From positions 1-24,111 of the IMG/VR virus record IMGVR_UViG_3300025132_000294: a DNA stretch of 24,111 nucleotides; one strand, 5' to 3'. The notes beneath the pieces were generated by a model. It did no database searches. It had not been told where the DNA came from and saw nothing but the letters and a program-made list of their open reading frames with translations. Both the position numbers and the translations under genes were made by a program. Numbering within the stretch: the stretch's first letter is position 1; every line of letters begins with the position of its first letter. This document shows, piece by piece, positions 1-23,833 of this stretch. This DNA is from a virus.

Positions 1-315
1 ATCCCACTCGAGATGTAGATTGTGGTCTAACAGCGTTCTTCCTGTCTCAATCAAGTTGAAAAATCTAAAGATGATCGTTGCCATCGCTACTTCAGGTTCG
101 GCAGATAATGGTCTGCGTATATGAGCAGCGAACCAACGAGTCGTTCTATCGTCTTCTCGAAAAACTTGGCAGAACTTGAACTTCTTAAAAATCTCATCTT
201 CAGTCCAAGGCGGGTCAGCGTTAGCGTCTTCTTTCTTTCTTCTAATCCGCTCTCGTTCTTCTATCCAATACAGATAGAGAACAAGCTCTTCTGAGATAAA
301 AGGCGTATTACTCAT
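1..315 (-). CDS. Partial DNA base hypermodification enzyme (5-hmdU DNA kinase helical domain/aGPT-PPlase-like), C-terminus off window
   Basis: An uninterrupted frame of 105 codons runs from an ATG at 315 off the left edge. Visible motifs, in order, are WIEERERIRRKK (residues 17-28), PPWTEDEI (35-42), FCQVFREDDRTTRWF (48-62) and an IFRFFNLIETG segment (82-92). This succession is what I know from the helical domain of phage 5-hydroxymethyl-deoxyuridine DNA kinases and the related alpha-glutamyl/putrescinyl-thymine pyrophosphorylases. Both act on hydroxymethylated thymine in phage DNA during thymine hypermodification. The catalytic C-terminal part is missing from the window, so kinase and pyrophosphorylase cannot be separated. 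The start overlaps the methyltransferase stop as ATGA, which suggests translational coupling; no strong Shine-Dalgarno is seen. Family membership rests on motif memory, not on a search. Confidence 0.72.
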   Translation of the reverse strand, partial: MSNTPFISEELVLYLYWIEERERIRRKKEDANADPPWTEDEIFKKFKFCQVFREDDRTTRWFAAHIRRPLSAEPEVAMATIIFRFFNLIETGRTLLDHNLHLEWD

Positions 316-1175
316 GGTTTCTTTCTTAATATCCATGCACAGTTGTTAGACACTTCTGGGAAGAAAGTCGCGGCAACTACTCTAAGAAACTGTTTACCGT
401 AGCGTTCTTGTAGAAGCTCGAACTGGTCGGGCCACAACCGCCACTCAGCGTCCTCATTATCTTTACTCATAGCTGCTTTTAGTTTAGGCATCTGAGCAAA
501 CGTACCAACTACAGATTGTAAAAACCATCCTCGAGTATATCGAGTCAACTCTTTCTTGAGTTCTTCAAACCCCCACTCGTATATGTGGTCTTCAGGCAAC
601 TTATCGTTGGAACCGTCGTGGTTAGGTGTAGAAACGTAAATTAATCCTCCTGGTCTCAAAACACGGTTAGCGTCATCAAGCCATGCTTGTATAAACTCAC
701 GGTTCATGTGCTCAATAACCTCTGTAGTCCAGAAGAAATCAATAGAGTTATCGGGTAAGTCGAACACAGGATTAACGGTGAGGTCTTGAATGTCAATCTG
801 TCCGTTAAAGTTCTTAAACCAAGTAGAATCTTCAACTAGTCCTGTAGGGCTGGAGTACCCTTGTTTCTCGTTAAGGCAAGCGGGGTCTATATCAACACCT
901 CGATAAGATGCAATCACGTCAGACTTCTTAACGGTGTAGGCTTTGTACAGATTTCTAAGAACCCATATTTCTCCACACCCTGCCTCTAGCACGTCGATAG
1001 GTCTCCCTAATTTTTTTGCTTCTTCAATACAGAGCGAGGAGATCTTATCGTAACGAGTCATATGAGTGATTTCGTCGGGTCGCCAGTTCCCTAGCATATT
1101 TCCACTAGCAATATCCATGCGAGTGTTTTTACTATTGTTTACATTTTCTTCGAGTTTCTTTCTAATAGAAGCCAT
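312..1175 (-). CDS. Class I SAM-dependent methyltransferase
   Basis: This 287-residue protein has a Rossmann methyltransferase core. The SAM-binding motif I is VLEAGCG (residues 62-68), an acidic strand-2 motif GVDID lies near 93-97, and a DLPDNSIDFFW...EVIEHM block is followed by VLRPGGLIYVSTPN (172-185), as in Methyltransf_11-type enzymes. The substrate cannot be read from the sequence. I chose the ATG at 1175 rather than the in-frame ATG at 1190: GGTGGAG lies 6 bases before 1175, while nothing similar precedes 1190. The ATG overlaps the stop of the preceding gene as TAATG, and the gene's own stop overlaps the next start as ATGA. It is therefore coupled to a probable DNA hypermodification gene, so DNA or a modified base is a possible substrate, as is a small molecule or protein. 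Confidence 0.85.
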   Translation of the reverse strand: MASIRKKLEENVNNSKNTRMDIASGNMLGNWRPDEITHMTRYDKISSLCIEEAKKLGRPIDVLEAGCGEIWVLRNLYKAYTVKKSDVIASYRGVDIDPACLNEKQGYSSPTGLVEDSTWFKNFNGQIDIQDLTVNPVFDLPDNSIDFFWTTEVIEHMNREFIQAWLDDANRVLRPGGLIYVSTPNHDGSNDKLPEDHIYEWGFEELKKELTRYTRGWFLQSVVGTFAQMPKLKAAMSKDNEDAEWRLWPDQFELLQERYGKQFLRVVAATFFPEVSNNCAWILRKKP

Positions 1176-1675
1176 TATGTTCTCCACCATGTTGGTTTGC
1201 GGCTAGGGTCTTTTTCCCATTTAGCAAAATGTTGTTTTTCGTTCATTAGATAATTTTGATAAGAGTCAAACACATCGTCTGATTTATATTCATCTGGCAT
1301 TGCTAGTACAAAACCGTAAGGTTGCTCTATCGTAGCTAGAACAGAACGAGGCTTGAAAGGAGCCCACATTAGCGGCCCTTTAAGTCTAGCAGAAGCATGG
1401 CTTTTCCCGTAACGGTGTGTGTATTCTTCGCACAAAGCAATAAAGTGTTTATACAGCCATCTGTAGTTCTCTCGAGCTAGTCGAACCCAAATACTACAGG
1501 GGTGATTAAGATGTGCAGTTTTATATAGTTCGTGTTCGTCTGCATATTCTGACGAGTATTCGCGCCACGCTGTTGATAACATCTGCGCTGATTCAAGAAT
1601 CATCTTGACAACGTGTTTATCACACAACGTCTGTGCACTTATTACTGGATCTGGGTCAGTAACAAATATATTCAT
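1175..1675 (-). CDS. Small phage protein, possibly pyrimidine-dimer glycosylase (DenV)-like
   Basis: This 166-residue basic, aromatic-rich protein has CDKHVVKMILESAQMLSTAW (residues 18-37), an HPCSIWVR segment, a NYRWLYKHFIALCEEYTHRYGK helix and a C-terminal KWEKDPSRKPTWW. Similar small phage proteins are, to my memory, often annotated as pyrimidine-dimer DNA glycosylase/endonuclease V. The order of an N-terminal DKH helix, a long central helix and a terminal aromatic Pro-Thr-Trp motif is reminiscent of T4 DenV. I cannot confirm homology by eye. If correct, it would cleave the glycosidic bond at UV-damaged pyrimidines; a role tied to modified thymine is another option. The ATG at 1675 has a strong AAGGAG six to seven bases upstream, and a promoter-like sequence lies between it and the helicase gene. 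Confidence 0.55.
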   Translation of the reverse strand: MNIFVTDPDPVISAQTLCDKHVVKMILESAQMLSTAWREYSSEYADEHELYKTAHLNHPCSIWVRLARENYRWLYKHFIALCEEYTHRYGKSHASARLKGPLMWAPFKPRSVLATIEQPYGFVLAMPDEYKSDDVFDSYQNYLMNEKQHFAKWEKDPSRKPTWWRT

Positions 1676-1730: not shown

Positions 1731-3224
1731 CTAAAGCGGAAAATACTTTTGCGTCTGCGGCTCAATTAAATAAAGATTTTCTTTTGCTCTAGTAAGCCCT
1801 ACATAAAACACACGCGACTCATCGTCAGGATTGTCCTGGAAAGATTTGTACACGCGACTTGATATGTCTGTTAGTAAAATTACATTATCTGCTTCACCTC
1901 CTTTGGCTGCGTGAATGGTTGATAAACGTATCCGTGGTTCTTTTGTGATCTTTTCACCCCGCCTAAGCATGGCTCGTATGTAGCTGCGCTCATCTGCTGA
2001 GATTGCTGTGAATACATCGTACCAATATTCGTTAGGAAGGTTAGGAATGTGTTTTGAGGCTATTTCGTGTGTGATATAAGTATCAAAGTCGAAATTCTCG
2101 AGGGAGTTAGGTAGACGAATCTTTAAATAATTAAGCACTTTGGTGAAATCTACAAAAGGCATTCCCTCTCCTTTTCTAAAACTCTCCCAAGATCGCACTG
2201 CCATGATCTTTCTTTCCGAAACGCTTGGCTTATTTTTGCTTTTATAGAACCAACCTTCAGACCTACAGTGTTGTTCGATGTTATTAAGTAGGTAATTCGT
2301 CCTTGCTAATACTAACCACTCACCGTGTTCCATGTCTATAGTTTCATAAGATGGTTCCCACGAAACGTGTCCTTCTTCTTTTCTAGGGTTCCACACTTTA
2401 TGTACCCGCGAACCGACTTGTCCGATACAACGCTCGGCAAGGGTATGGATAGATTTAGGGATTCTATAGGACTGTTTGAGAACCATCGCGTTCTTAGAGT
2501 TACGAATGAGGTAATCAACATCTGCACCAGCCCAACGATAGATAGCTTGATCATCGTCGCCTGCGATATAGATACGATCAGCTGAGTCACACAACTTCCT
2601 GACCACGGCCCATTGAAGAGGAGAAAGGTCTTGAGCTTCATCGACAAACATTACGTCTAGCTTCGGAGCCTTTCCTCGGTCAAGGAACAGTTGCAGCATA
2701 TCAGTGTAGTCGATCAACAGTCGATCTTGTTTAAACAGCTTTAGTCCGTTGGCAAATCTCTCTAACTCGAACCAGCCTACAGCATCATCAGAATCGTGCC
2801 ATTGTGTTTCTAAACTGACCTGTCGCATCCTAGAGAGGTTTTCTATAAACAAGAGTCGATCATCTTTAGAGATACCAGAGATGTGTCCCTCTTCGGTGTT
2901 TACTGCTCCTTTCAATCTGAGGTTCAGCTTTTCATTTAAGTCGTATATATCCGAAGAAGACATAACACTACCCTTAGATAGACTCAGCTGATAAAAACAT
3001 AACGAGTGGAGGGTTCTAAAATACCGCAGTTGGTTATTAGTCACAGAGAACTTCGACATCGCTCTGCTCTTTCCTTCCTGCACTGCTTGTTTCGTAAACG
3101 TGAAGAACCCTATGTCTTCAGGATCTGTTCCTTTATCGAGTTCCTCTTCGAGTAACCCTAACAAGGTGCTTGTTTTACCAGTTCCAGGAGGGCCAAGTAT
3201 TATTTGTGCCCGTTGTGTTAGCAT
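1731..3224 (-). CDS. UvrD/PcrA-like superfamily 1 DNA helicase
   Basis: This 497-residue SF1A helicase has its motifs in order: Walker A GPPGTGKT (residues 11-18), motif Ia FFTFTKQAV (40-48), Walker B VDEAQD (194-199), motif III GDDDQAIYRWAGA (222-234), motif IV QSYRIP (251-256), motif V STIHAAKGGEADNV (435-448) and motif VI YVGLTRAKENL (474-484). It is an ATP-driven 3'-5' DNA translocase/helicase by family. At 497 residues it is shorter than bacterial UvrD (about 720), so accessory 1B/2B insertions are reduced, as is usual for phage versions. Its ATG abuts the primase stop directly (TAG then ATG) with no clear ribosome site, so translation is probably coupled to the primase and the two may act together at the fork. 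Confidence 0.93.
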   Translation of the reverse strand: MLTQRAQIILGPPGTGKTSTLLGLLEEELDKGTDPEDIGFFTFTKQAVQEGKSRAMSKFSVTNNQLRYFRTLHSLCFYQLSLSKGSVMSSSDIYDLNEKLNLRLKGAVNTEEGHISGISKDDRLLFIENLSRMRQVSLETQWHDSDDAVGWFELERFANGLKLFKQDRLLIDYTDMLQLFLDRGKAPKLDVMFVDEAQDLSPLQWAVVRKLCDSADRIYIAGDDDQAIYRWAGADVDYLIRNSKNAMVLKQSYRIPKSIHTLAERCIGQVGSRVHKVWNPRKEEGHVSWEPSYETIDMEHGEWLVLARTNYLLNNIEQHCRSEGWFYKSKNKPSVSERKIMAVRSWESFRKGEGMPFVDFTKVLNYLKIRLPNSLENFDFDTYITHEIASKHIPNLPNEYWYDVFTAISADERSYIRAMLRRGEKITKEPRIRLSTIHAAKGGEADNVILLTDISSRVYKSFQDNPDDESRVFYVGLTRAKENLYLIEPQTQKYFPL

Positions 3225-4748
3225 CTACAGTACGCTGTCGTCGAAATCAGGTAAGTCGTGTGATTCTGTCTGAGCTTCAAACTGTGGTATATGCCACACA
3301 TTCGCACCTTTCCCTTTTATATTGAAGAAATAAGAATCTCCTCCCATATTCCTCAACTTAGCTGTAAGTTTATTTCTAGGGTAGTCTCTGAAGTTTTTGC
3401 GGTGTAAGTAGTCCATCAGATCGCCTAGTCTAAAATATGTTCTATCTTTATCTGACCACGGCTTTCCTAATAGTAACTCGTCACGTTCTCTAGCAGGACG
3501 TTCAGTACAAAACGTCTCTAATAATTCGTTGAAATGCCCCTCAGTTGATGCGTCTTTAGGAACTTCGATGATAGTCAAAGTATCCAGGAGCTGTTGTATA
3601 ATTTGACGCCAGACATTATCCCTTACCTTCTGAGGAATAATATTGAGGCTGTCCATACACTTTCTCTGAAACCTATTCTGGTTCAGGAGTTCTTCAGTTT
3701 CTAACTCTAGTCGTCCACCTTCTACATCTAAGAACCAGATCGGTGGATCACTATTCTGTTTAGTTAGATTACTGAACAAAGGAGTGCCGCCCGAAGCCCC
3801 TATACCAAATTTACGAGTTCTACATAGAGGACTGTTACAGTGTCCCGCTATCGGCTGATCGTTACACTTATAGAAATAATCTTTCTTCTGAACCTGTTTC
3901 GTAACCGTCAATACTTCTTGCGCACTCAAAGGAGGAGAGAAGTGCTTATGGTTAGCCTGCTCTACTCGACTCTCCCAATCATCTGGGAACTTCTTTCGTA
4001 GAAAAACTCCTACATTAAACAGTCCTGAGTTTCGCATTCCTTTCGGAAACCCCTGAGCTATAAGATGCTCTAAACAAGGAGGAGCTTGATCTAACCACTC
4101 AGCGTCTTCTAGTATAGGAGTCACTTCTAGTTTTTCTAACTCTTCTTCAGTTAGAACGAGTGTCTCTACATACTCTAGGAATTCTTTCGGACTGAGAACT
4201 TTACCAGTCGGGCCGAAGCCGTAACCAGTAGAGTTCTCCCCGCCAAAATAAGGCATATTCAGAGAACTTCCTCTATCCCCTCGCTCTAATAAGAGCTTAG
4301 TTTGTTTAGGAAATATCTCAGACTGGCCAAACCCAATAGCAGACGCTACTTGTCTAAGTTTTCGTTGCATCGTAGATGCAGGGACGGGGTCAAACACAAA
4401 TAGAAATAAATGCGCCCCTCCACTCTTTGATCGACATACGACCAAAGGTAATTTAAATTTCTTTAGCTTCTTAGCTAAACCCTTCAGATCTACTGAAAAC
4501 TCATCGATATCAATAGATCCCCAAATGCAGTTGTTGTCTTCGTCAATCGGTACTATACCGAGACCTCTTTCACCTTTTAGGTGTTGTAACCAAATATCCT
4601 CAAGTTCTTTTTGGCTCAGAGTTTTAGATATAGTTACATACTTACCCTTTGCTTTCCCATCTTCCCGTGTTTCTTTTGTCGGGGTAAAGACACTATGACC
4701 GTGCCTTAACCCCGCAAAACGGTGGGCAAACTCTTCCTGTAATGACAT
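3225..4748 (-). CDS. Archaeo-eukaryotic primase (AEP, TOTE-like) for phage replication
   Basis: This 507-residue protein carries an AEP-type primase core: a WGSIDIDEF strand with acidic residues D80 and D82 (metal binding), VVCRSKSGGAHLFLF (103-117), EIFPKQ (144-149) and GSSLNMPYF (160-168). This set of motifs is what I know from the primase domain of TOTE-type systems and phage primase-polymerases. A middle domain contains PPC (C225), a GMRNSGLF motif, PPLSAQEV (272-279) and a cluster C295, C304, C309 with H303, which looks like a zinc or Fe-S site of PriCT/PriL type. The C-terminal 170 residues are not recognised. It would make primers and may also polymerise DNA. AAGGGTGA precedes the ATG. 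It sits between the SSB-like gene and the helicase, as expected in a replication operon. Confidence 0.8.
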   Translation of the reverse strand: MSLQEEFAHRFAGLRHGHSVFTPTKETREDGKAKGKYVTISKTLSQKELEDIWLQHLKGERGLGIVPIDEDNNCIWGSIDIDEFSVDLKGLAKKLKKFKLPLVVCRSKSGGAHLFLFVFDPVPASTMQRKLRQVASAIGFGQSEIFPKQTKLLLERGDRGSSLNMPYFGGENSTGYGFGPTGKVLSPKEFLEYVETLVLTEEELEKLEVTPILEDAEWLDQAPPCLEHLIAQGFPKGMRNSGLFNVGVFLRKKFPDDWESRVEQANHKHFSPPLSAQEVLTVTKQVQKKDYFYKCNDQPIAGHCNSPLCRTRKFGIGASGGTPLFSNLTKQNSDPPIWFLDVEGGRLELETEELLNQNRFQRKCMDSLNIIPQKVRDNVWRQIIQQLLDTLTIIEVPKDASTEGHFNELLETFCTERPARERDELLLGKPWSDKDRTYFRLGDLMDYLHRKNFRDYPRNKLTAKLRNMGGDSYFFNIKGKGANVWHIPQFEAQTESHDLPDFDDSVL

Positions 4749-22930: not shown

Positions 22931-23148
22931 TATTTTTGCTCCGGAGTAACCGTTTCTAGTTGTTGCGCATACCAGTTAAATGCTGCCATGTGTGTATCAA
23001 GTTGTTTTTGATTAGAATTAATAATCTGGGTTATTTGAGCAATCTGTTCTCTAAGCTCGTCCATCCTGGTGTTTAACATCTCAGGATTAGGAGGAAGTTG
23101 AGCAACCTCGGTTTCTTCTACAGCTTCTGCTTTAGTGTCTTGTTCCAT
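22930..23148 (-). CDS. Small coiled-coil protein of unknown function
   Basis: This 72-residue acidic protein has a disordered Glu/Ala/Thr-rich start, then a helix from about residue 25 to 66 (MDELREQIAQITQIINSNQ and beyond) with heptad-like hydrophobics. There is no membrane segment or known domain. It starts 17 bases before the end of the oxygenase-like gene, with AAGG nine bases before the ATG. It could be a small structural or chaperone-like protein; the function is not known. Confidence 0.6.
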   Translation of the reverse strand: MEQDTKAEAVEETEVAQLPPNPEMLNTRMDELREQIAQITQIINSNQKQLDTHMAAFNWYAQQLETVTPEQK

Positions 23149-23833
23149 CTTCCTCTACCTTCCAAACATTTAAATTTGCAGCGACAGTACGCCGTTCGCC
23201 TTCACCCTCGAAAGGGTAAACCATATGTGTCAACCAGCTAGGGAACATTAAGAACTTCCCGACCTCTGGCTTAATGACAAAACTTTGTGGGGGAGCTAAA
23301 CGCTCTGTATCTAATAAACTATTACGGCCATAACTAAACGCGAGGCAACCATCTGCATTTCCACTAGAGTTATACAGGCTATACTCAGGACTTCCCGCTG
23401 TGGGCTGATCTAGGATTTGTTGGGGTACTTTTGTCCATGTAGTACAGGAAACGCCCATAATGGTTTTAGTGCCATGATCGTGCATTGGGTTGTAATCTCC
23501 CTGATAACTATGCACCGACCACAACTCGTCTGTAAGAACCTCTCTTTTACCTTTTAGTGGGTTACCAGAGTGAGCGCAGAACTGCTTGACGTAATCCATT
23601 GCCAAGCCCTGAATCGTCCAGTTAAAGTCTTTTAACTCTTCACAATGATGATCCATCGTAAGCTGTTGTCCGTGGGCTATCTGCCCTACTAATGTGCCCG
23701 CATGGCTCTTGCGTTCTTGATCTACCATTAACTTATCTAAGTAATCGTTAAGCGTACCTACCATGCTTTCAGATAGTTGTGCTTCCAGCATAAATACCGC
23801 TGGCAAAGAATGCAGCGTAAAGTGTTGCTCCAT
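23132..23833 (-). CDS. 2-oxoglutarate/Fe(II)-dependent oxygenase-like protein
   Basis: This 233-residue protein has a double-stranded beta-helix pattern like phage 2OG-Fe(II) oxygenases of the prolyl-hydroxylase-related type. YNPMHDHGTKTIMGVSC (residues 114-130) carries the proximal metal ligands, with H118 and H120. FLMFPSWLTHMVYPF (194-208) supplies the distal His203, followed by GERRTVAAN with R214/R215 for 2OG binding. The canonical proximal motif is HxD/E; here it reads HDH, so activity needs testing. Such phage proteins are assumed to hydroxylate proteins, nucleic acids or small molecules, but the substrate is unknown here. It is not of the TET/JBP type as far as I can see. The start overlaps the upstream stop as TAATG with no clear ribosome site, so translation is probably coupled. 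Confidence 0.78.
   Translation of the reverse strand: MEQHFTLHSLPAVFMLEAQLSESMVGTLNDYLDKLMVDQERKSHAGTLVGQIAHGQQLTMDHHCEELKDFNWTIQGLAMDYVKQFCAHSGNPLKGKREVLTDELWSVHSYQGDYNPMHDHGTKTIMGVSCTTWTKVPQQILDQPTAGSPEYSLYNSSGNADGCLAFSYGRNSLLDTERLAPPQSFVIKPEVGKFLMFPSWLTHMVYPFEGEGERRTVAANLNVWKVEEDGTRH

Follow-up and report, generated by a model that had tools for sequence, protein, structure and literature searches.

A predicted O-methyltransferase in the place of the 5-hmdU DNA kinase suggests a methyl-capped thymine in phage DNA

The left edge of the IMG/VR viral record IMGVR_UViG_3300025132_000294, which derives from a marine phage and whose whole 24,111 bases form the window analyzed here, carries three open reading frames on the minus strand (positions 1-336, 312-1190 and 1175-1675). 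The first (1-336) is interrupted by the contig end and encodes the N-terminal ~105-112 residues of an HMUDK_hel (aGPT-PPlase clade 1) protein, hereafter HEL, with a probable start at 315 or 336; it matches PF18723 at an E-value of 1.5e-17 over profile positions 5-91 of 281, and also phrog_2396 at 3.4e-22. The second gene (312-1175) encodes a class I SAM-dependent methyltransferase, hereafter MT (PF13489, 2.9e-11), which begins with the MASIRKK start common to its relatives, and the third (1175-1675) encodes a DenV-like protein of the Pyr_excise family (PF03013, 1.1e-11; phrog_624, 2.8e-62). These results agree with the first-pass annotation, which had recognized HMUDK_hel motifs, a SAM methyltransferase and a DenV-like, glycosylase-like protein at this edge. 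Upstream on the same strand lie a UvrD-like helicase (1731-3224; PF00580, 1.4e-27), which is the first gene of a conserved replication module and keeps its position in relatives, and an AEP-type primase (3225-4748; PF22548, 1.9e-12; phrog_21866). A 2OG-Fe(II) oxygenase (PF13759, 7.4e-14) is encoded at 23132-23833, at the far end of the window and distant from these genes.

The couplings described earlier between the three genes are legible in the sequence, given particular starts: MT and HEL overlap as ATGA if HEL begins at Met8 (105 codons, position 315), and the DenV-like gene and MT overlap as TAATG if MT begins at MASIRKK (position 1175). The single promoter that had been proposed for the set found no support, as the 55-bp gap before position 1675 contains no minus-strand promoter-like site, and promoter-like sites in the region are not enriched (7 versus 6.2 in shuffles). 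The operon probably extends beyond these three genes, since the helicase and primase genes precede them in the same orientation.

Relatives that are 97-99% identical extend the contig past its edge. In L004 and other relatives, the full-length HEL is a protein of 323 amino acids, a solo HMUDK_hel without a P-loop domain, and the L004 protein matches PF18723 over residues 20-288 at 8.9e-43, so that membership in the HMUDK_hel family is seen for both the window fragment and the full relative. After HEL, these contigs carry a thymidylate-synthase-fold (TS-fold) gene (PF00303, 2.9e-22), a gene for 146 residues and polA, which encodes a family A DNA polymerase. The TS-fold protein has the catalytic cysteine (Cys146 equivalent, in a PCN motif), an asparagine at the position of E. 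coli residue 177 and no Trp80, a pattern that equals that of the dUMP-hydroxymethylase candidates of phages YuA and Ab18 and is kept in all typed members. The Asn/Asp177 rule that separates the dUMP from the dCMP type is discussed in PMC8670742, and among the HEL loci partnered by a kinase, MT, TAGT (TET-associated glycosyltransferase) or GT-B protein, all 195 that were typed have Asn at residue 177. The dUMP hydroxymethylase expected to the left of the contig is thus represented in relatives by a dUMP-type TS gene directly after HEL, and the link of this locus to thymine modification is well supported, the relatives' HEL being a full-length HMUDK_hel that adjoins a gene of this type. The order in the window's group is helicase - [DenV-like] - MT - HEL - TS - small gene - polA; all 125 related loci examined, 80 of them located through HEL alone, keep the MT-HEL-TS set intact, with MT immediately preceding HEL. 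Because gene order is conserved across the whole replication module, this adjacency alone proves little.

Among the closest described arrangements is that of the M6/YuA/PaMx11-type Pseudomonas phages, which carry a kinase, HMUDK_hel, a dUMP hydroxymethylase and an amino acid:DNA transferase (ADDT), and which share HMUDK_hel, the Asn177-type TS and polA with the window's group in the same order. In YuA, a kinase (PF18748, 7.8e-18) is followed by HEL (PF18723, 7.8e-59), Nmad5, TS, small genes and polA, with ADDT (PF18724) encoded upstream; the Ab18 arrangement is similar, with the kinase in the slot before HEL and the ADDT gene upstream. By contrast, in the window's group this slot of the 5-hmdU DNA kinase is filled by MT, with neither kinase nor ADDT. 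Both the kinase P-loop and the amino-acid transferase had been predicted to lie leftward of the contig. The kinase profile PF18748 found nothing in 45 long records of the MT group (29-82 kb, contigs that may be fragments) and was positive in three of four control phages, and the ADDT profile PF18724 likewise gave 0 of 45, with all four controls positive. The Ab18 kinase scores weakly with the Pfam model, and an iterated kinase HMM that included this divergent protein had no match in three near-genome-size contigs (53-66 kb); small P-loop kinases were absent from the same contigs, where Walker A motifs occurred only in UvrD and in one terminase-size ORF. As these searches of MT-group records detected neither, a kinase or ADDT elsewhere in the genome was rejected; a host kinase, or one too divergent to be recognized, may nonetheless serve the group.

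The best solved relatives of MT by profile are Hen1 (2.7e-9 and 2.9e-9) and UbiG (4e-8), which share with it the class I fold and the motif IV ExxEH, and differ from it in their low overall identity, their substrates and their N- and C-terminal regions. The metal-site-like residues of MT are E157, E160 and H161 (bases ~708-722) together with H202 and E205 (~574-587), the residue numbers counting from the upstream ATG (position 1190); the profile alignment covers ExxEH in both relatives, the later HxxE being aligned for Hen1 only. Their equivalents in HEN1 are E796, E799, H800 and H860, which we take to be metal-binding. These four residues have been described as conserved around the HEN1 active site (PMC1397878). 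Both ExxEH and HxxE are retained in 198 of 204 MT-family ORFs, and none of the family's ORFs has the base-methyltransferase motifs (D/N/S)PP(Y/F/W) or PCQ, so that an ordinary DNA base methyltransferase (N6-A, N4-C or C5-C) was rejected. The structure model of MT (pLDDT 86.4, pTM 0.86) finds mostly small-molecule methyltransferases as fold matches. MT is accordingly predicted, from its profile and motif matches, to be a Hen1/UbiG-like O-methyltransferase; class I methyltransferases change substrate easily, a point against the substrate proposed below.

Full-length relatives of MT that share its invariant N- and C-terminal residues are encoded by Stenotrophomonas phage AXL3 and by two Manatee Spring phage genomes. 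The MT-family alignment led to 80 further loci; nearly all have a TS-fold gene close by, accompanied in most cases by PRA-PH and TMK-like genes, and the gene order takes several forms. Where the TS of MT loci lacking HEL could be typed, in about 70 loci, it was always of the Asp177 (dCMP) type; nine atypical motifs in the typing were read by eye as PYD. As the TS has Asn177 with HEL and Asp177 without it, HEL tracks thymine, while MT occurs with both pyrimidines; the window-type MT is only 22-27% identical to its dCMP-associated relatives. A widespread cluster of MT, PRA-PH, TMK-like and dCMP-type TS genes without HEL is seen in L149-L227 and in AXL3 (L139:7851-10993), and is a candidate for the production of O-methylated 5-hydroxymethylcytosine. 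The AXL3-type cluster has the same MT family along its length (N- and C-terminal invariants, ExxEH...HxxE) and differs from the window's cassette in its cytosine-type (Asp177) TS, in lacking HEL and in the strong restriction resistance of the phage DNA (PMC7504290). This DNA was refractory to 35 of 37 restriction enzymes, the two that cut having A/T-only sites (PMC7504290), a pattern that would fit a modified cytosine.

We assembled a set of 108 HEL loci by scanning with the HEL alignment, adding the earlier loci and dereplicating at <90% identity. The partner was MT in 38 loci, a TAGT glycosyltransferase in 27, a kinase in 26, a GT-B protein in five and a macro-domain protein in one, and none was found in 11. 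The partner transferases are mutually exclusive, with never two at one HEL locus among the 108; MT was absent from all 38 records of the kinase, TAGT or GT-B type, and TAGT, whose identity was confirmed with Pfam (PF20691, 5.6e-24), from all 45 MT-type records. The TAGT phages have a primase 48%, a helicase 42% and a polA 57% identical to those of the window's phages, in the same order, and they belong to the same phage family. The two cassettes share this replication module with its small gene, HEL and a dUMP-type TS; however, the glycosyltransferase of the marine TAGT phages (L264, L251 and others) lies between HEL and TS, whereas MT lies upstream of HEL. Against the 42-57% identity of these replication genes, the TAGT-type HEL reaches only 35% and is no closer to the MT-type HEL than the kinase-type HEL is; this looks like cassette exchange within a phage family. 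On the HEL tree, the MT-type HELs form one clade (100/99), beside the Ab18-type HELs (a position subject to long-branch caution) and away from the TAGT clade. The MT-HEL pairing has a single origin on this tree, and its many co-occurrences are therefore not independent evidence.

Several other HEL loci carry distinctive gene sets. TAGT genes with HEL and a dUMP-type TS occur in the marine phages L264 (8825-9601), L251 (9647-10429) and L257 (8828-9601), and such loci are predicted to make a glycosylated, base-J-like 5-hmdU that would derive from a hydroxymethylated nucleotide rather than from a TET enzyme. FkbM-type methyltransferases stand beside TAGT in the HEL loci L308 (7898-8584) and L294 (9095-9784), where the sugar of the modified base might be O-methylated. 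In L247 (596-3022), HEL and TS have as neighbors a possible sulfotransferase, a PIG-L-like deacetylase and an APS-kinase-like protein, and a partial GT-B gene lies upstream; a sulfated or amino-sugar thymine is a possible product. Acinetobacter phage nACB2 (L129:5152-6840) has a macro-domain protein directly before HEL, and its genome encodes ADDT, no recognized HMUDK kinase and a P-mevalo_kinase-like protein after TS. The HELs of L280, L291, L297, L300 and L273 are solo, with no TS or recognized transferase nearby, and form a separate long-branched clade.

The structure model of HEL (pLDDT 92.5, pTM 0.90) has as its best Foldseek matches the PaMx11 5-PmdU glycinyltransferase gp46/PUGT (PDB 8z2n), followed by HhH DNA glycosylases; the E-values are weak, 0.026 at best, though the probability is 1.00 and the list is coherent. 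PUGT is a thymine-hypermodification enzyme that acts on DNA, and its TM-score with the HEL model is ~0.43. At the sequence level, a search of HEL against solved structures returned nothing credible, PUGT has no detectable similarity to HEL, and hhalign of HEL with the YuA ADDT gave nothing, so that the link to the PaMx11 transferase comes from fold comparison. Since this fold match is to an active transferase, HEL itself could be catalytic. Residues conserved in HEL across all partner types suggest a common DNA-side role, whichever transferase is present.

The DenV-like gene had been taken as a member of the coupled set. Of the MT-type loci 19 of 38 carry it, and of the TAGT-type loci 19 of 27, in some cases at a distance of kilobases; as an optional gene of variable place it was rejected as a functional part of the cassette. 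In the pyrimidine-dimer glycosylase DenV/EndoV of T4, Thr2 is the nucleophile. The window's DenV-like protein starts with MNIF, and residue 2 in the family members listed is Asn, not the Thr of EndoV.

Drawing on computed gene content, gene order, transferase exclusivity, residue types and fold class, we consider it somewhat probable that MT, HEL and the relatives' TS form a thymine-hypermodification cassette, in which MT replaces the 5-hmdU DNA kinase and caps 5-hmdU as 5-methoxymethyl-dU. The TS-fold enzyme, to judge from its active-site residues, would convert dUMP to 5-hydroxymethyl-dUMP, which would enter phage DNA as 5-hmdU, as in YuA/M6- and PhiW-14-type phages. HEL, with its helix-hairpin-helix, DNA-glycosylase-like fold and its conserved residues, would bind the DNA and present the flipped 5-hmdU. 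The partner of HEL would then transfer its own group, phosphate, sugar or, here, methyl, to the 5-hydroxymethyl oxygen, and MT, taking the methyl from SAM, would yield 5-methoxymethyl-dU, the product expected of an O-methyltransferase together with a dUMP hydroxymethylase. No amino-acid transferase would be needed, because methylation caps the hydroxyl instead of activating it. The first-pass annotation had suggested that the methyltransferase is a tailoring step after 5-hmdU activation; its role in thymine modification is supported, but its place after activation is not, as kinase and ADDT are missing and MT sits in the kinase slot. Direct action of MT on the 5-hydroxymethyl group is more likely, and we file the cassette as a variant of thymine hypermodification rather than as a member of the kinase pathway.

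The methyl-capping reading has to be weighed against three others. A host or undetected phage kinase might phosphorylate 5-hmdU, with MT methylating a later intermediate, for example at an amino group. HEL is otherwise best known beside a kinase and ADDT, and divergent kinases exist, that of Ab18 being an example, but we judge this pathway unlikely: kinase, ADDT and glycosyltransferase-type partners are all absent from the 45 long records, no small Walker A protein was seen in the three near-genome-size contigs even with the HMM that includes the Ab18 kinase, and MT has an O-methyltransferase-type active site. A similarly low probability attaches to the action of MT on free 5-hmdUMP or 5-hmdUTP before incorporation, with HEL serving another role in DNA. 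MT relatives do occur beside nucleotide-pool genes (PRA-PH, TMK-like, dCMP deaminase) without HEL, and a phage 5hmC carbamoyltransferase is active on both DNA and the triphosphate (PMC8670742). However, the association of the dUMP-type TS with HEL, and of the dCMP type with MT loci lacking HEL, suggests that 5-hmdU is reached only with the help of HEL, and kinase and glycosyltransferase partners take the same slot.

Least likely of the readings considered is that the proximity of MT to HEL is incidental to a single phage lineage, the enzyme being a passenger with a target of another kind (tRNA, protein, lipid or host metabolite). The generic class I fold of MT, the single origin of its pairing with HEL and the conservation of the surrounding gene order regardless would all accommodate a passenger. 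Against this, nearly every locus of the distant set has a member of this MT family, with N- and C-terminal motifs of its own, next to a TS-fold pyrimidine hydroxymethylase, in several gene orders, and MT is absent where another transferase pairs with HEL.

An O-methyltransferase in the kinase place suggests a methyl-capped thymine, a modification not known to be described in phage DNA. A literature search for methoxymethyl bases in phage DNA found none, and the primary papers on the kinase pathway may hold an earlier mention of the methyltransferase partner. More broadly, we propose tentatively, as plausible though somewhat short of probable, that HMUDK_hel is not a part of the kinase but a general 5-hmdU-presenting module with an exchanged transferase (kinase, TAGT, GT-B or methyltransferase), and that MT would produce 5-methoxymethyl-dU in the marine phages and its AXL3-like cousins 5-methoxymethyl-dC. 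AXL3 is a cultured phage, so half of this claim is directly accessible. Should this hold, methyl-capped hydroxymethylpyrimidines would add a new class of base to those of phage DNA, the work of an O-methyltransferase family found across many phage lineages; HMUDK_hel would be recast as one DNA-side subunit that serves different chemistries on 5-hmdU, and the base modification of a phage would become predictable from the partner gene of its HEL.
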